Of a DNA stretch of 64,000 bases, positions 1-48,968 are shown piece by piece (positions within the stretch are counted from its first letter, which is position 1; the number at the start of each line of letters is the position of its first letter). The stretch covers positions 124,001-188,000 of the forward strand of contig DULJ01000040.1 of the NCBI GenBank assembly GCA_012840465.1. The letters are read 5' to 3'. This stretch comes from Caryophanales bacterium (GTDB lineage Bacteria > Bacillota > Bacilli > Bacillales > Bacillaceae_J). Made by a program: the position numbers and the translations under genes. Below the pieces are notes generated by a model that was given only the letters and a program-made list of their open reading frames with translations, did not search any database and was not told the origin of the DNA.

Positions 1-522
1 TCCACCAGTTGCCTCTTTTGATTGCCACCAAGGTGGAGCAATGTCCTTGTCAAAATAGCAAGTAAAGTTGTATAACGAGTTGGTAATTTTACCGATTTTG
101 TCAAAGTGTTTTCTAGCTTCATGAAAAGCTTGAAAGTATCTTCGACTTTGAGCTACCATTAATTTTTTATTGTTCCTTTTTGCAGCATTAACCATTGATA
201 GACCTTCAGCCACTGAGGTTGCCATAACTTTTTCTACTAATATATGTTTTCCAGCATTGCTAGTCTGTACAGAAATTGGCTCATGCAAATTATGAGGTAG
301 ACAAATAACCACTGCATCTACATTTGGATCCTTCAAACAATCTTCAACTGAAGTATAATATGGAACATTAAATTCTTGAGAATAGGATTTAGCCAAATCT
401 TTATTAATATCTACAACGGCTACTAGTTCGCATAGGTCGGGCCAGTGATTGATCGCATCAATGTGGGTGCGTGCAATTCTTCCTAATCCAATAATAGCAA
501 TTTTTACTTTACTTAGACTCAT
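1..522 (-). CDS. Gfo/Idh/MocA family oxidoreductase (partial, runs off left edge)
   Basis: Hand translation from ATG at 522: MSLSKVKIAIIGLGRIARTHIDAINHWPDLCELVAVVDIN..., Rossmann GLGRIA motif and VEKVMATS motif; RBS aaggagatg upstream. Not in the ORF track because truncated. Confidence 0.8.
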   Translation of the reverse strand, partial: MSLSKVKIAIIGLGRIARTHIDAINHWPDLCELVAVVDINKDLAKSYSQEFNVPYYTSVEDCLKDPNVDAVVICLPHNLHEPISVQTSNAGKHILVEKVMATSVAEGLSMVNAAKRNNKKLMVAQSRRYFQAFHEARKHFDKIGKITNSLYNFTCYFDKDIAPPWWQSKEATGG

Positions 523-570
523 GGGTTAAAACATCTCCTTGTTTTAAAATAGTATATGATTATCCGCATA

Positions 571-588
571 TCATGTTATCAGACATGA
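571..588. promoter_or_regulatory. Palindromic operator candidate (copy 1)
   Basis: TCATGTTATCAGACATGA; 16-nt core CATGTTATCAGACATG identical to the copy at 2080-2095; lies upstream of the oxidoreductase. Confidence 0.55.
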
Positions 589-616
589 TAATGCGAAAAA
601 AAACCTCTATTTTTCT

Positions 617-934
617 TTAGCGAATTTGTACCTCATTTTTGACTTTTTCATAGTCTTCTATAGTAATTATTTCAAGGTCACTCTTTGGAATCATGCAGCA
701 TGCTAAAGCATAACCATTTGCTAATTCTTCATCAGATAGTGCCTCATGGGAACGAACTAATTTTTGCTCATATTCACCATTGAGAACTTTTACCTTGCAC
801 ATGCCACATCCCCCTTGCTGGCATCCTGTTGGAATCGGAATAAACTGATTTCTAGCAGCTCTTAGGGGTGTCACATCCGCTGAACAAGTGTACTTAAACT
901 CCTGTCCTCTCGCTTTGAGAATCAATTTATACAT
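617..934 (-). CDS. 2Fe-2S ferredoxin, plant/XylT type
   Basis: Motif GCQQGGCGMCKVKVLNGEY...LACCMIPKSD; adjacent to an extradiol dioxygenase. Confidence 0.8.
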   Translation of the reverse strand: MYKLILKARGQEFKYTCSADVTPLRAARNQFIPIPTGCQQGGCGMCKVKVLNGEYEQKLVRSHEALSDEELANGYALACCMIPKSDLEIITIEDYEKVKNEVQIR

Positions 935-963
935 ATGAGTATCCTCCCTATTATTTCAGGTTA

Positions 964-1878
964 TTAAGTTAGCGCTTTCATAAAGGATTCAGATAATTCC
1001 CTACGGTGGTAAAAAATCCCTTGCCCAATCCTATCTTCTGTCCATGTAATAGTTGGCATATCTGCATAGGCAAAATATCCACTTGCAAATGCTTCATTAC
1101 GGTTTCCTGATGGATCAAAGAAGTAAATCGTTTCCCCTCGAGTAATCCCATGACGGGTTGGTGTTACATCAAATGGTACTTCATACATAGATAATAAATC
1201 TGCAGCATTAAAGACATCATGAAGAGAATTAACATGGAACGCTGCATGATGAAGCTTTGTATCTGGACCCTTAACAAAAGCGATATCATGGGCTTTATTA
1301 GAAGTAAACAAGAAACTTCCAAGCAATTCCTCACCGTCTACCGTTGTAATTTTTTCACTTTGTCGAAAATTAAGTGCTTCAACGAAGAATCTGCTTACGG
1401 TCTTTAGGTCATCCCCTGTTAATAAACAGTGATCAAGACGGTGTGGTGCAATCCCTTTTTTTCCTAGTGGCCATGGATGAGGATTTAAGGTTCCAACGGC
1501 CGTACCTAATAACTCTATCTCAGTATATAGTTCACAATGATGACCAGTTGGTAAAATAAAATGAACGGCTTCTCCTTCACCTATTCTAGCACCTTTTGAA
1601 ATTCTTGAAGTCGTACAACCAAATTCTTCAATTTTCTTTTCGTAATAAGCTAAATCAACCAATGTTTCCACTTTAAAAGCCATATGAGCTAAACCAGCAC
1701 TATTTGACTTTGTTAAGATCACGCTGTGATGATCATATTCATCCCAAGCTTTTAAATAAACACTATCACGATCTCGACCTGTTACTTCTAAACCAATAAT
1801 ATTTGTATAGTAATCTACTGAACTCTCTAAGTCCATCACCTTTAGTTCAACTCGACCTAGACGCATAATCCTCGCCAT
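964..1878 (-). CDS. Catechol 2,3-dioxygenase (VOC/extradiol family)
   Basis: MARIMRLGRVELKVMDLE start with GGAGGGG RBS; ligand motifs RLDHCLL, LHHAAFHV, GNRNEAF; XylE-like C-terminus ITWTEDRIGQGIFYHRRELSESFMKALT. ORF-track start at 1923 is probably too early. Confidence 0.88.
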   Translation of the reverse strand: MARIMRLGRVELKVMDLESSVDYYTNIIGLEVTGRDRDSVYLKAWDEYDHHSVILTKSNSAGLAHMAFKVETLVDLAYYEKKIEEFGCTTSRISKGARIGEGEAVHFILPTGHHCELYTEIELLGTAVGTLNPHPWPLGKKGIAPHRLDHCLLTGDDLKTVSRFFVEALNFRQSEKITTVDGEELLGSFLFTSNKAHDIAFVKGPDTKLHHAAFHVNSLHDVFNAADLLSMYEVPFDVTPTRHGITRGETIYFFDPSGNRNEAFASGYFAYADMPTITWTEDRIGQGIFYHRRELSESFMKALT

Positions 1879-2078
1879 TTCTTTTCCCCTCCTATACATA
1901 ATGAATGATTTAAAATTAATCATAGTGGTACTACCAGCAAAATAAGTTTTGGAACATCCTTAATGTCTTAGCGTATGTTTTCCGAAATATTGGTAAGACC
2001 CTATCATAAGAAAGTGTATTAGAATTACCAAAATTACCTTGAATAATATGCTATAATAATTATATGAATATCAGGATG

Positions 2079-2095
2079 TCATGTTATCAGACATG
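2079..2095. promoter_or_regulatory. Palindromic operator candidate (copy 2)
   Basis: TCATGTTATCAGACATG, shared with 571-588; between the divergent dioxygenase and GntR genes. Confidence 0.55.
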
Positions 2096-2293
2096 TTAAA
2101 CAAGAATAACCCCCTTTTATTTCCAATATTGACTTGTTAGCTGTCTGCAAAGCATAATTTTATAATAAACATATATATTTAATTTGTCTACAAAATATTT
2201 TGAAAAAAGTAAATATTTTAAAAAAGGTAGGAACAAAATGATATTATAGTTAGAAGATGAAGGCGTTTTAATCAAATTTAAGGGGATTATAAT

Positions 2294-3010
2294 ATGAAAA
2301 CAGCAAAAATAAATAGACAAAAGATTTACGAAATCATCGCTGAACACATTAAACAACAAATCCTAAGTGGAGAATTGGAGCCTGGGGAGAAATTACCCAC
2401 AAGTAAAGAGTTGTGCGATATTTTCCAAGTGGGAAGATCAACAGTAAGGGAGGCTCTAAGTGCATTGGAAATAATGGGGCTCATCGAAACTCGACAAGGT
2501 GAAGGTAGCACCGTTAAAATATATAACACAGAAGATGTGAAATTACTGGATTTTAAAAACATCCTAATCAGTGAGGAAACTGTTTTAGAACTAATGGAAG
2601 CACGTAAATCAATTGAAATAACAAATGCACGAATGGCTGCATTAAAACGAACAGAGGAAGACCTGATAAAATTAAAGAATAATCTTGAGATGATGGAATT
2701 AAATATAACGAACGCAATGAAAAGTAAGAAGGCCGATATGCAGTTTCACCAAATCTTAGCGGAATCCACCCATAATTCAATCATGGTTCGTCTGATAGCA
2801 ACAATGTCTGACCAAATGAGCAAGGCGATGGAAGAAATACGAAGAATTACATTTGATAGTCCAGCTTTATCCAGAAGAGTTTTTGAAGAACATTATCGTA
2901 TTTATCAAGCAGTAGCAGCGCAGGACAGGTTGTTGGCACAACAAAGGATGCTGGAACATCTCGATCATTTTGAAAATGAGATGCGAAATTATTATAAGTC
3001 TAAAAAATAA
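2294..3010 (+). CDS. FadR/GntR family transcriptional regulator (FCD domain)
   Basis: N-terminal wHTH LEPGEKLPTSKELCDIFQVGRSTVREALSALEIMGLIETRQGEG plus alpha-helical C-terminal domain. Confidence 0.9.
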   Translation: MKTAKINRQKIYEIIAEHIKQQILSGELEPGEKLPTSKELCDIFQVGRSTVREALSALEIMGLIETRQGEGSTVKIYNTEDVKLLDFKNILISEETVLELMEARKSIEITNARMAALKRTEEDLIKLKNNLEMMELNITNAMKSKKADMQFHQILAESTHNSIMVRLIATMSDQMSKAMEEIRRITFDSPALSRRVFEEHYRIYQAVAAQDRLLAQQRMLEHLDHFENEMRNYYKSKK

Positions 3011-3120
3011 TGTAAAGGAAGAACATCACTTTTAAAGATGCCCCAGCTTCCTATCTCATATTAACCACAATTAATTTTGAAACTTACCGTTAATGAGAAA
3101 ACGGATAACATATAAATCTA

Positions 3121-3414
3121 AATGAAATTAGCTTAATTGATATTTTAAAATCCGAAAATGAGGATGTTGTAGATACAATTCAGCTGTTAATGGAGTTAGA
3201 AAAAATCAATGAATATATTCATATATTAGATGAAAGAGAAAAGGAAGTTATCGTAGGCCGATTCGGTTTGGATTTGCAAAAGGAAAAAACGCAGAGAGAG
3301 ATAGCGAAGGAGCTTGGGATCTCAAGAAGTTATGTATCAAGGATCGAGAAACGGGCTTTGATGAAGCTGTTTCATGAATTTTATCGGAATGAACGGAAAA
3401 AGAGAGGATCATGA
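3121..3414 (+). CDS. spoIIIC: Sporulation sigma factor SigK, C-terminal half (spoIIIC-like); not preceded by the N-terminal half
   Basis: Frame reads [97 protein letters not shown]; in-frame stops at 3091-3108 just upstream; homology begins at AATGAAATT. The ORF track starts at the internal ATG 3190. Confidence 0.85.
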
Positions 3415-3547: not shown

Positions 3548-4087
3548 TTATATTTTCTTTAATTTAAAAGTTGCAATCATCATCAAGGCTAATCCAATAA
3601 TGATATCCATAAAGATATGGGAAGGCAAAATGGATACTAAGAGGGTTGAGAATGTTAATATTATTCCAGCTACTGTTATTGGTAAGCCTGTAAAATATCC
3701 GTTATTTTCAGTAATGTTGAATTTGGATAAACGGATCGCTCCACAAACGATATAGATAATGGTAAATAAGATCCCCGGCGCACCATATTCAAAAAGGATT
3801 ATTTGATAGGTCAGTAAAGCTGGTGCAACTCCAAATGAGACAATATCACACATTGAATCAAGTTGTTTGCCGAACTCTGATTCAATATTTAGTTTCCGGG
3901 CAACTAATCCATCAAACCGATCGGAAAGCGCCGCAATAAAAATGAGCAACAAACTTAGTTGATATTCACCCCGTAATACCGCCAGCAAAGCACAAACTCC
4001 GAAGCTCAAGTTCATGATCGTCAAGATATTTGCTGCTTGTGACTTGATTTTTTTAATTGTATGATCAATATATTGTGATAAAAACAT
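3548..4087 (-). CDS. pssA: CDP-diacylglycerol--serine O-phosphatidyltransferase
   Basis: CDP-alcohol phosphatidyltransferase motif SDRFDGLVARKLN...FGKQLDSMCD; next to psd. Confidence 0.9.
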   Translation of the reverse strand: MFLSQYIDHTIKKIKSQAANILTIMNLSFGVCALLAVLRGEYQLSLLLIFIAALSDRFDGLVARKLNIESEFGKQLDSMCDIVSFGVAPALLTYQIILFEYGAPGILFTIIYIVCGAIRLSKFNITENNGYFTGLPITVAGIILTFSTLLVSILPSHIFMDIIIGLALMMIATFKLKKI

Positions 4088-4193: not shown

Positions 4194-4976
4194 GTGCTAA
4201 AGCAGTTGTACCGTTTTCTAATTGATCTGACTAATAATTTATACATTTCAAGTATTGTCCGTGCCTATACGACTTCAAACATAAGCAATAAATTAATCCC
4301 GTCCTTTATTAAGGTTTTTAAAATAAATGAGAGTGAATTTGAGAAAAATAGTAATGAATATAAAAGTCTGCATGATTTTTTTGTCCGTACTCTAAAAGAA
4401 GGTGTCCGCCCAATTGATGGGGATTCTAGAACTGTAATCAGCCCTGTCGACGGCTATGTAGAGGATATAGGTACGATTACGGAAGATAGGAATATTTTCG
4501 TAAAGGGTCAGCTCTTTTCTATTAGAAAAATGATGGGGAATGACCCGGCATTCGATAAGTACATAGATGGTGTGTTCATGATCATTTACTTAAGCCCTAA
4601 AGATTACCATAGAATACACAGTCCTGTATCAGGAAAAGTTATTTCGCAATGGGACCGCGGTGGGAAATCGTATCCAGTTAATAAATGGGGATTAAAATAT
4701 GGCAGGTCCCCCCTAGCTGAAAATTATCGGAAGATTTCAGAGATTGAGTGCAACGGAGCCCATGTCGTACTCGCGAAGGTCGGAGCATTATTTATTAATA
4801 GTGTTACACTCACACATAAAAACGACCTCTTGGAAAAGGGAGAAGAAATTGGCTATTTTTCATTCGGCTCAACCGTAATTTTACTATTCGAAAAAAGTAG
4901 TTTTAAAGCGGATAACAGTATTAAAAATCAATCAATAAAAATGGGTCAAAAAATTGGTGTTTTAGTTCAAAATTAG
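4194..4976 (+). CDS. psd: Phosphatidylserine decarboxylase
   Basis: SPVDGYVEDIG, LSPKDYHRIHSPVSGKV, C-terminal self-cleavage motif FGST. Confidence 0.93.
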   Translation: MLKQLYRFLIDLTNNLYISSIVRAYTTSNISNKLIPSFIKVFKINESEFEKNSNEYKSLHDFFVRTLKEGVRPIDGDSRTVISPVDGYVEDIGTITEDRNIFVKGQLFSIRKMMGNDPAFDKYIDGVFMIIYLSPKDYHRIHSPVSGKVISQWDRGGKSYPVNKWGLKYGRSPLAENYRKISEIECNGAHVVLAKVGALFINSVTLTHKNDLLEKGEEIGYFSFGSTVILLFEKSSFKADNSIKNQSIKMGQKIGVLVQN

Positions 4977-44690: not shown

Positions 44691-45151
44691 TTATTGATTT
44701 TATCGATGACCATAATTTTGTTCTGGAAGAGCAACAAAAAGAAATTGAGAAATTATTGCAATTTGCTACGGGAAAAGAAGGGATTGACCCCGATGCTGAA
44801 CTTTCTATAACCTTCGTTAATAATGAAGAAATACAGGAGATCAACCGTACTTACAGGATGAAGGACCAACCGACAGACGTAATTTCTTTTGCGATGGAGG
44901 AAATGGGTAAAGGCGAAATTGAAATTAAAGGCGAAGATTTACCTACTATATTAGGTGATATTATTATCTCAATTCCAAGAACGATTGAACAAGCAAACGA
45001 ATATAATCATAGCTTTATGAGAGAATTGGGATTTTTAAGTATCCATGGTTTACTCCACTTATTGGGATACGACCATATGGAAAAAGAAGATGAAAAAATA
45101 ATGTTTGCAAAACAAAAGGAACTATTAGATGAATATGGGCTCCATAGGTAA
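44687..45151 (+). CDS. ybeY: rRNA maturation RNase YbeY
   Basis: IHGLLHLLGYDH motif (HGxLHLxGYDH). Confidence 0.97.
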   Translation: MIIDFIDDHNFVLEEQQKEIEKLLQFATGKEGIDPDAELSITFVNNEEIQEINRTYRMKDQPTDVISFAMEEMGKGEIEIKGEDLPTILGDIIISIPRTIEQANEYNHSFMRELGFLSIHGLLHLLGYDHMEKEDEKIMFAKQKELLDEYGLHR

Positions 45152-45521
45152 AGAATGCAAAAGATTGGCGGCCAGTTTTAAGTATGCCACCCACGGACTA
45201 TTGCACGCAATAAAAAAAGAACGAAATATGCAGATCCATCTATCGGTTGCCTGTGTTGTTATTTTTTTAGCATATTTTTTCGCAGTTTCTAAAATCGAAT
45301 GGATCTTACTCCTTTTGTGTATTGGAATCGTTATTAGTATGGAATCAATCAATACAGCAATCGAAAGAACAGTTGATTTATGTACGCAGGAAATGAAGCC
45401 TTTGGCTAAACAGGCAAAGGATACTGCAGCGGCGGCTGTTTTTGTTTTCGCAATTATATCTGTTATCATAGGATTAATTATTTTTACAAAGCCACTGTTA
45501 ACTTACTTGAATTTTCTGTAA
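45135..45521 (+). CDS. dgkA: Diacylglycerol/undecaprenol kinase family protein
   Basis: YATHGLLHAIKKERNMQIHLSVA; ESINTAIERTVDL; D-AAAAV. Confidence 0.95.
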   Translation: MGSIGKECKRLAASFKYATHGLLHAIKKERNMQIHLSVACVVIFLAYFFAVSKIEWILLLLCIGIVISMESINTAIERTVDLCTQEMKPLAKQAKDTAAAAVFVFAIISVIIGLIIFTKPLLTYLNFL

Positions 45522-45581
45522 ATTATTCATCCGATCTTGCTGAAATTAAATAAAAGTTAGTGTAAAATAAAAGTACTTTGA

Positions 45582-46905
<1,324 letters not shown>

Positions 46906-46906
46906 T

Positions 46907-47121
46907 CGAAAAGCGGAAGCACCCGCTTAGCGACGAAAAGACTGGAGCGCATCGACTGAGATAAAGGAAACACGATGAGTGGTAACGAATCGATGTTGAC
47001 TTATCTCGCAGGGAGATGAGCGAAGTCTACGAGTCGCTGGGTGCTGAAGCTAGACATTAATCGAAAAGCGGAAGCACCCGCTTAGCGAAGTCTATGAGTC
47101 GCTTGGGTAGAGCTAGACATT
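46907..47121 (+). repeat. Dispersed repeat family R1, full copy (46907-47056) plus tandem deleted copy (47059-47121)
   Basis: tcgaaaagcggaagcacccgcttagcgac... and tcgaaaagcggaagcacccgcttagcgaagtctatgagtcgcttgggtagagctagacattaa. Confidence 0.85.
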
Positions 47122-47227
47122 AAATTTACAGAATTTCACTCACATTAAATGTTATCGTTAGGTCAAGCTAATAGTAGGGAGTTGTAAAAATAGGCTAGTT
47201 TTTAAAAATTGAAAGGTGGGGTTTCTT

Positions 47228-47371
47228 GTGCTAGATTTTACCTGGAAAATCTTTAGTCAAACTGGTGATTTGGAAACGTATCTTCTTATGAAAGAGATTG
47301 AACGGGAATATCAAGAAACTACTGATATTAATTTTAACGAGCTCATTCAAATTGATTCTCCTTTATCTTGA
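47228..47371 (+). CDS. yqzL: YqzL family small protein (47 aa)
   Basis: GTG start, hand translation (M/V)LDFTWKIFSQTGDLETYLLMKEIEREYQETTDINFNELIQIDSPLS; between era and recO. Confidence 0.9.
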   Translation: MLDFTWKIFSQTGDLETYLLMKEIEREYQETTDINFNELIQIDSPLS

Positions 47372-47412
47372 CCCATGCACCGCTTCATGAAAGTGTGAAC
47401 AATAAATAGTGG

Positions 47413-48171
47413 ATGGTGTCAAAATTGCTACGAAAAGTTGAAGGGATTGTCATCCGAACAATTGACTATGGTGAAACAAATAAGATTGTTAATTTGTTTA
47501 CAAGGGAAATGGGCAAAATAGGTGTAATGGCACGTGGAGCCAAGAAGCCGCAAAGCAGACTAACGTCCGTTTCGCAAATGTTTATTTATGGAGACTTTTT
47601 AGTGCAAATGGGCTCTGGTTTAGGGACCTTACAACAAGGCGAGATCATCAATTCTTTTCGGGGACTTAGAGAGAATCTAGAAAAGTCGGCCTATTCCGCT
47701 TATATCGTTGAGCTCACCGATAAATTAACGGAGGAAAAAAAGACAAATCCATTTTTATTCGAACTTCTATGCCAAACTTTAAACTATATAAACGAAGGAA
47801 TGGACTTAGAAATACTAACCTATATATATGAAATGAAAATGTTAAATATTGCAGGTATTTATCCAAGACTTGATGGATGTGTGAACTGTTCAAAAACGCA
47901 AGGAAAATTCGCCTTCTCGATTAGAGAAGGCGGTTTTATATGTCATCGTTGTTTCCATATTGATCCGAATCTTATTCAGATATCACCAGCCACGCTTAAG
48001 TTACTTCGTCTTTTTTATTACTTTGATTTACATCGTCTTGGAAAAATCTCTGTTAAGGACACGACTAAAAAAGAACTGAAAACCGTGATTTCCTCGTTAT
48101 ATGATGAATATTCCGGCTTGAACCTTAAATCTAAGCGTTTTCTCAACCAACTTGATCGTTTTAAACCTTAA
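47413..48171 (+). CDS. recO: DNA repair protein RecO
   Basis: [40 protein letters not shown]; zinc cysteines CVNC...CHRC. Confidence 0.96.
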
Positions 48172-48326
48172 AAAAGGAAATTGTTACATACTAATTATTT
48201 AATTTTTTTTAAATGAAGCATATTATTACTCAATTAATTTAATTAAGCTATAATAAATATATCAATATTATATCTTAATTATTACTTTTTTCTTTTTTCT
48301 TTTATATAGTGTTTTAATGATCTAAG

Positions 48327-48968
48327 GTGGTGAGTACGATAGAACTAAGTAATCGTCAGGAAAAAATTGTACAAATTGTCAAAGATAACGGTCCGATAAC
48401 GGGAGAAAATATAGCTGATCAATTAAATTTAACAAGAGCGACACTTAGGCCTGATTTAGCTATTTTAACGATGGCTGGTTATTTAGAGGCACGTCCCCGT
48501 GTAGGTTATTTTTATACTGGAAAAACTGGTTCGCAATTATTAACTGAAAAGGTTAAAAAACTACAAGTTTACCAGTATCAATCCATACCAGTTGTTGTTG
48601 ACGAAGGTGTTTCTGTTTATGATGCTATATGTGCAATGTTCCTTGAGGATGTTGGTACATTATTCGTAGTTGATAAGAATTCGATGTTGGTTGGTGTGCT
48701 TTCAAGAAAGGATTTATTACGCGCAAGTATTGGAAAAACGAACCTTGAGGCGATTCCTGTTAATATAATAATGACAAGAATGCCTAATATAACTTTCTGT
48801 CAAAAAGATGATTTAATAATCGATGTAGCTAAAAAGATCATTGAAAAACAAATTGATGCAGTTCCGGTTGTTAAAATTTCAGAAAAAGGCTACGAGGTTA
48901 TTGGAAGGCTGACAAAAACCAATATGACAAAGGTATTATTAGATATCGCAAAAGATGAAATCATCTAG
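48327..48968 (+). CDS. ccpN: Transcriptional repressor CcpN (HTH + CBS domains)
   Basis: LSNRQEKIVQIVKDNGPITGENIADQLNLTRATLRPDLAIL; tandem CBS; followed by ppsR. Confidence 0.95.
   Translation: MVSTIELSNRQEKIVQIVKDNGPITGENIADQLNLTRATLRPDLAILTMAGYLEARPRVGYFYTGKTGSQLLTEKVKKLQVYQYQSIPVVVDEGVSVYDAICAMFLEDVGTLFVVDKNSMLVGVLSRKDLLRASIGKTNLEAIPVNIIMTRMPNITFCQKDDLIIDVAKKIIEKQIDAVPVVKISEKGYEVIGRLTKTNMTKVLLDIAKDEII

Follow-up and report, generated by a model that had tools for sequence, protein, structure and literature searches.

Why should the 3′ half of sigK begin, undecayed, in the middle of foreign DNA, and where is the rest of the gene? The window analysed here is a stretch of 64,000 nucleotides corresponding to positions 124001-188000 of the 255-kb contig C51 in a draft genome of 3.94 Mb and 138 contigs. 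In a sequence-only reading of this window, an undecayed SigK region-4 half was said to meet foreign DNA abruptly at AATGA, and position 3121 was taken for the right attachment site of an element running out of the window to the left. Both the abrupt junction and the intact state of the half gene were borne out. Reading frame 1 from 3061 contains stops at 3091-3096 and 3106-3108, 13-30 nt before the AATGA at 3121, only positions 138-227 of the SigK model TIGR02846 match in the window (C51:127115-127384, profile search), and the 98 residues encoded from 3118 match the reconstructed SigK at 99% identity. The junction is very probably the attR of a 79,703-bp sigK-intervening (skin-type) element with a plasmid- or ICE-like rather than prophage body, whose own recombinase integrated a circle into sigK at AATGA (Table 1).

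Table 1 Features of the sigK-intervening element and its right flank. Plain positions refer to the window; positions prefixed C51 refer to the contig.
Feature	Position	Strand	Remarks
Large serine recombinase, 523 aa	C51:51303-52874	-	Inside element, outside window; Resolvase, Recombinase and Zn-ribbon domains
RDF homologue, 77 aa	C51:66476-66709	+	Inside element, outside window; CD1234 homologue by sequence
Alp7A-like (Alp7A-type actin, segregation gene)	C51:67415-68629		Outside window
Tad/T4SS-type operon	about C51:84388-118015		Outside window; coherent block of ~34 kb
Right end of element	1..3120		Window start is C51:124001
GFO/IDH/MocA oxidoreductase	1..522	-	Cargo; runs on left of window to C51:123491; KdgT permease and EamA transporter further left
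2Fe-2S ferredoxin	617..934	-	Cargo; adjoins dioxygenase
Extradiol (catechol 2,3-dioxygenase-like) dioxygenase	964..1878	-	Cargo
GntR/FCD-family regulator	2294..3010	+	Last gene of element
attR element-side arm ACGGATAACAT	3101..3111	+	Inverted copy ATGTTATCCGT just inside attL; the pair forms the attP palindrome around AATG/A
attR core AATGAAATTAG	3121..3131	+	Same 11 bp at C51:47418 is attL, outside window
sigK 3′ half (SigK region 4)	3121..3414	+	Host side of right junction; stop codon 3412-3414
Phosphatidylserine synthase-like gene (by sequence reading)	3548..4087	-	First host gene right of sigK; order kept in two sister genomes with intact sigK
Phosphatidylserine decarboxylase-like gene (by sequence reading)	4194..4976	+	Next host gene; host flank

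The 5′ half of sigK, which had been predicted to lie outside the window to the left, was found on the same strand and contig as the 3′ half, about 80 kb away. TIGR02846 positions 3-144 match at C51:47010-47432, and the orphan half, 99% identical to the reconstructed SigK over residues 1-145, ends in ...DKEGNE at C51:47418. The 11-bp repeat at this point is present in exactly two copies in the 100 kb examined, one per junction, and the whole element extends over C51:47418-127120 (79.7 kb). A genome-wide search recovered sigK as two in-frame pieces on one strand with no other intact copy, the third match being a 45% paralogue. The alternative of a truncated remnant, with an intact sigK elsewhere and neither an orphan 5′ half nor a recombinase to the left, thus does not describe this genome, which has this sole sigK and both parts. 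Joining the halves at the repeat restores full-length pro-SigK with its pro-sequence. In six other family genomes sigK is intact (92-99% identity). Two sister genomes, moreover, have an intact sigK between the same neighbours in conserved order, namely the genes to the left of the 5′ half and to the right of the 3′ half here, and the joined junction is identical to their uninterrupted gene at 114/120 and 105/120 bases. In another genome (G337:C1, L144:10282 and 11558), a prophage-type sigK element has at its end two copies of the sigK 3′ half with identical attR, spaced 1,276 bp apart.

Of the core, only AATGA is generally common to the attL and attR of relatives, with its centre at AATG/A (the slash marks the centre). 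The attP of the predicted circle is a near-perfect palindrome, symmetric around this centre at 22/25 positions, a score that none of 79,643 other positions in the element attains. The spacing of the arms, GATAAC-11-AATGA and AATGA-14-GTTATC, is kept in most relatives, and symmetry around AATG/A reaches 21/24 in a C. difficile circular record and 17-19/24 in other relatives. Because the palindrome of the C. difficile circle shares the AATG/A centre, the attachment site here is, by its sequence, of the C. difficile type. The C. difficile skin module is not that of B. subtilis, and the two act at sites in separate regions of sigK (PMC6957869). Consequently, the parallel that had been drawn with the B. 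subtilis skin (SpoIVCA, Skr) holds in principle, in that sigK is split, a serine recombinase lies inside and rejoining is in frame, but it does not extend to the exact site and module. The B. subtilis element is prophage-like, and its recombinase/RDF module and its place in sigK are different (PMC6957869).

A large serine recombinase had been expected beside the 5′ half. It does lie inside the element, but 3.9 kb from the 5′ half, with two plus-strand genes between; in most relatives the recombinase ends ~30 bp from sigK, and recombinases are likewise displaced in genomes G048 and G337. The protein carries a YLRKSRAD motif with Ser10, as in CD1231, and is 53% identical to a recombinase on the C. 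difficile circular record. Among 384 sampled genomes of the order, recombinases at ~47% identity or more were mostly located at a sigK half, an exception being G314, in which a broken 52% copy lies away from the genome's own intact sigK. Recombinases at 41% identity or less had no sigK piece alongside in the stretches examined and for that reason were dropped as relatives of the sigK type.

The element also encodes a 77-aa protein, a candidate directionality factor (RDF). Almost every element with a recombinase of this clade has a member of the protein's family, which in several cases directly adjoins the recombinase; near recombinases at 41% identity or less, no member reached a convincing score. 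Among 50,697 phage records the sole match to the RDF homologue was THSA-485A, which also carries the recombinase of the clade; the plasmid search gave no match. The family HMM matched a 72-aa protein of the C. difficile circle at E 0.0015, and hhalign gave a probability of 47% and an E of 2e-4. This protein has a pI of 5.2, and TGTAACAAT begins 64 bp, and is centred 60 bp, upstream of its start. As this is where the TGTAACAAT site is reported for CD1234, the proven directionality factor of the C. difficile skin (PMC5025042), we identify the 72-aa protein on sequence grounds as CD1234, which makes the 77-aa protein of our element a CD1234 homologue. Another 72-aa protein of C. difficile, with an HTH, was rejected as CD1234 because its pI is 8.95 and its upstream region lacks a TGTAACAAT site. 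The case is weak if judged by one alignment and strong by co-occurrence with the recombinase clade, and the 77-aa protein probably acts as the RDF here. CD1234, reported in 2016 to be without database similarity, would thereby gain a family that travels with the recombinase clade, making the factor testable across species. The C. difficile circle itself (NZ_CP149754) is a 57-kb record classed as a plasmid. Besides the CD1234-like RDF and the palindromic attP it contains a recombinase the size of CD1231, together with a phage holin and amidase, and it looks like a sigK-integrating phage or a skin-phage circle.

Both states of a related element were recovered from genome G158. One contig of 3,937 bp (C22, L089) reads sigK-5′, attL, a 3.77-kb insert, attR and sigK-3′, the insert holding a recombinase, an RDF homologue and one larger ORF. 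In a second contig (C24, L112), sigK is rejoined exactly at AATGA, and the flanks common to both contigs are 99-100% identical. The likeliest explanation is that the G158 DNA contained both forms, through excision or a mixed culture. For the element studied here, the gene halves, core repeat, palindromic attP, recombinase, RDF homologue, empty site of relatives and plasmid-type gene content can all be read from the sequences. We propose that the large serine recombinase of a circular form would have acted at the AATG/A centre to integrate it, and that excision at the repeat would regenerate an in-frame pro-SigK gene and release the attP circle. The element thus appears to carry the enzyme, a probable helper protein and the DNA sites for precise self-excision. 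We infer that it excises in this strain and that excision is timed to the mother cell. In a sigma-E/SpoIIID promoter scan of the recombinase, RDF homologue and sigK, sigma-E-like matches were of a kind common by chance, and two SpoIIID-like sites were located upstream of the recombinase.

The element might instead be a fossil that, once inserted, can no longer excise, in which case sigK would be a pseudogene and the strain could not complete sporulation. The displacement of the recombinase from attL by two genes fits such a history, as does the lack of an excised form in the assembly of this genome, and the 80-kb size and cargo suggest long residence. We regard this as unlikely, however, because both sigK halves are undecayed and in frame, the recombinase and RDF homologue remain open, both att sites retain their arms at the conserved spacing, and the displaced recombinases of G048 and G337 show that distance from sigK is not peculiar to this element.

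An element still equipped to excise is the preferred reading, and its body points away from phages. Its Tad genes comprise CpaB, a TadA-type ATPase, TadB/C-type, pilin-like and prepilin-peptidase-like genes, and its T4SS-type genes a VirB4/TraG-type ATPase, an M23+SLT wall hydrolase and an FtsK-like (coupling-protein-like) ATPase; an EAL protein, a ParA/TadZ-like protein and SLH, fn3 and CARDB surface proteins are also encoded. An integrase, att sites, VirB4-type ATPase, FtsK-like ATPase and wall hydrolase are features of an ICE. No relaxase family scored above cut-off among the element proteins scanned with Pfam or NCBIfam, and 'ICE' is consequently a working name only, though we think that the element may still be able to transfer. 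No phage structural or packaging genes were detected among the element proteins scanned with Pfam or PHROG; in the 85-protein PHROG scan, no structural family was among the 25 commonest families listed. As a positive control, the sister sigK elements of G073, G337 and G182 yielded terminase, portal, major head, sheath or tape-measure genes. A 495-aa gene of the element has homologues on large Bacillota plasmids, and neither it nor the VirB4-like protein had relatives in the viral-contig searches. A search of nine relatives carrying this recombinase clade gave no close VirB4 relative, and a replicon of Paenibacillus cellulosilyticus combines a distant recombinase and this plasmid-type backbone within 32 kb.

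These data bear on a further alternative, namely that the element is a decayed prophage comparable to the B. subtilis skin, having lost its structural genes or carrying them in a form too diverged to be recognised. The same recombinase clade does occur on prophages in other genera and on phage THSA-485A, and a few element genes (Dda-like helicase, 5′-3′ exonuclease, DNA methylase) have phage relatives. Such an origin is nevertheless quite improbable, as the ~34-kb Tad/T4SS-type block is coherent and ordered as on circular plasmids, the relatives of the 495-aa gene reside on plasmids and were not seen in viral contigs, and head, tail and terminase families are missing from the proteins scanned. 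Finally, an assembly artefact joining unrelated contigs through a repeat, conceivable in a draft of 138 contigs, can practically be dismissed, since the element lies together with its flanks on a single 255-kb contig, synteny with the sister genomes holds on either side, and the junctions fit a site-specific model common to independent genomes.

Related genes in similar blocks are carried by circular plasmids. That of Brevibacillus marinus (NZ_CP034542) shares its TadA, TadB/C, CpaB, pilin-like and CARDB genes at up to 51% identity, and the VirB4-M23/SLT-FtsK block is shared with P. polymyxa pAP1 and P. amylolyticus pY5S7-2 at roughly 35-50%. These plasmids differ in being autonomous circles, with no sigK-type recombinase match in the stretches examined. 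As for the metabolic cargo, copies of the dioxygenase-ferredoxin pair (85%/73%) occur elsewhere in the same genome (the dioxygenase copy on C60) and in one sister genome, and the dioxygenase also occurs in a second sister; from these copies, the pair was probably recruited within the genus.

The skin element of C. difficile is about 15 kb in size. Our element resembles it in interrupting sigK, in the 53% identical recombinase, in the attP palindrome on AATG/A and in the RDF homologue (PMC5025042); unlike that phage-like element, it is 80 kb in size and combines plasmid, T4SS and Tad genes with metabolic cargo. Non-phage elements in mother-cell sporulation genes are already represented by island IV of B. 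cereus bv. anthracis (22 kb in sigK; PMC10745906) and gin (28.6 kb in gerE; PMC5595907), both excised during sporulation. The available parts of these two reports describe them with restriction-modification or unknown genes and make no mention of a T4SS/Tad apparatus. In the literature searched, which excluded most subscription journals, sigK-intervening elements were prophage-like or, once, a small island, and no plasmid- or ICE-type sigK element was described. When SSR units were exchanged by engineering among SPbeta, skin and ICEBs1, a sporulation recombination unit proved functional on a phage or an ICE (PMC6957869). Those swaps were artificial, whereas the union of a plasmid/ICE-type body with a C. 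difficile-type module is best read as a natural swap of the sporulation recombination module, and would give conjugation-type DNA a route into developmental gene control.

More tentatively, the element could be a live conjugative element that exploits sporulation: hidden in sigK, it would be released as a circle in the doomed mother cell and remain in place in the spore, and its Tad/T4SS-type apparatus would let it spread. As part of the same conjecture, which we hold to be possible but on balance doubtful, it would be one of a larger number of under-recorded intervening elements in the genus, among them prkA insertions of 4 kb and 26 kb as candidates for developmental excision.

In this genome prkA, too, is split, and its halves enclose the other large serine recombinase (C25:46932-48737, 602 aa). 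The inserted DNA measures 4,037 bp, has a 13-bp core, AGTGCAGATGAAT (L102:6746-10783; G000:C25, about 44745-48782), and contains a few small ORFs, one of which, ~65 aa and just upstream of the recombinase, is a possible RDF. Joining the halves yields an uninterrupted PrkA of 631 aa, and the empty site of a sister genome agrees at 109/120 positions. The sister species G002 also has a divided prkA; there the insert lies elsewhere in the gene, measures 26.3 kb and has the core ATGCATGAAGAT (G002:C27:7796-34096, L167/L168), and a serine recombinase is next to the 5′ half; in five other family genomes the gene is intact. PrkA is required for sporulation in B. anthracis (PMC13001217). The intervening-element papers searched do not mention prkA, and the splits thus add a target gene unnamed there. 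Further splits are possible in G039, G041, G058, G105, G191, G220 and G284, each with two or more prkA matches whose best E-values are weaker than that of an intact gene. In addition, G123, G148, G196, G340 and G378 have recombinases of ~40% identity 1-3 kb from an intact prkA, perhaps marking elements in a neighbouring sporulation gene.
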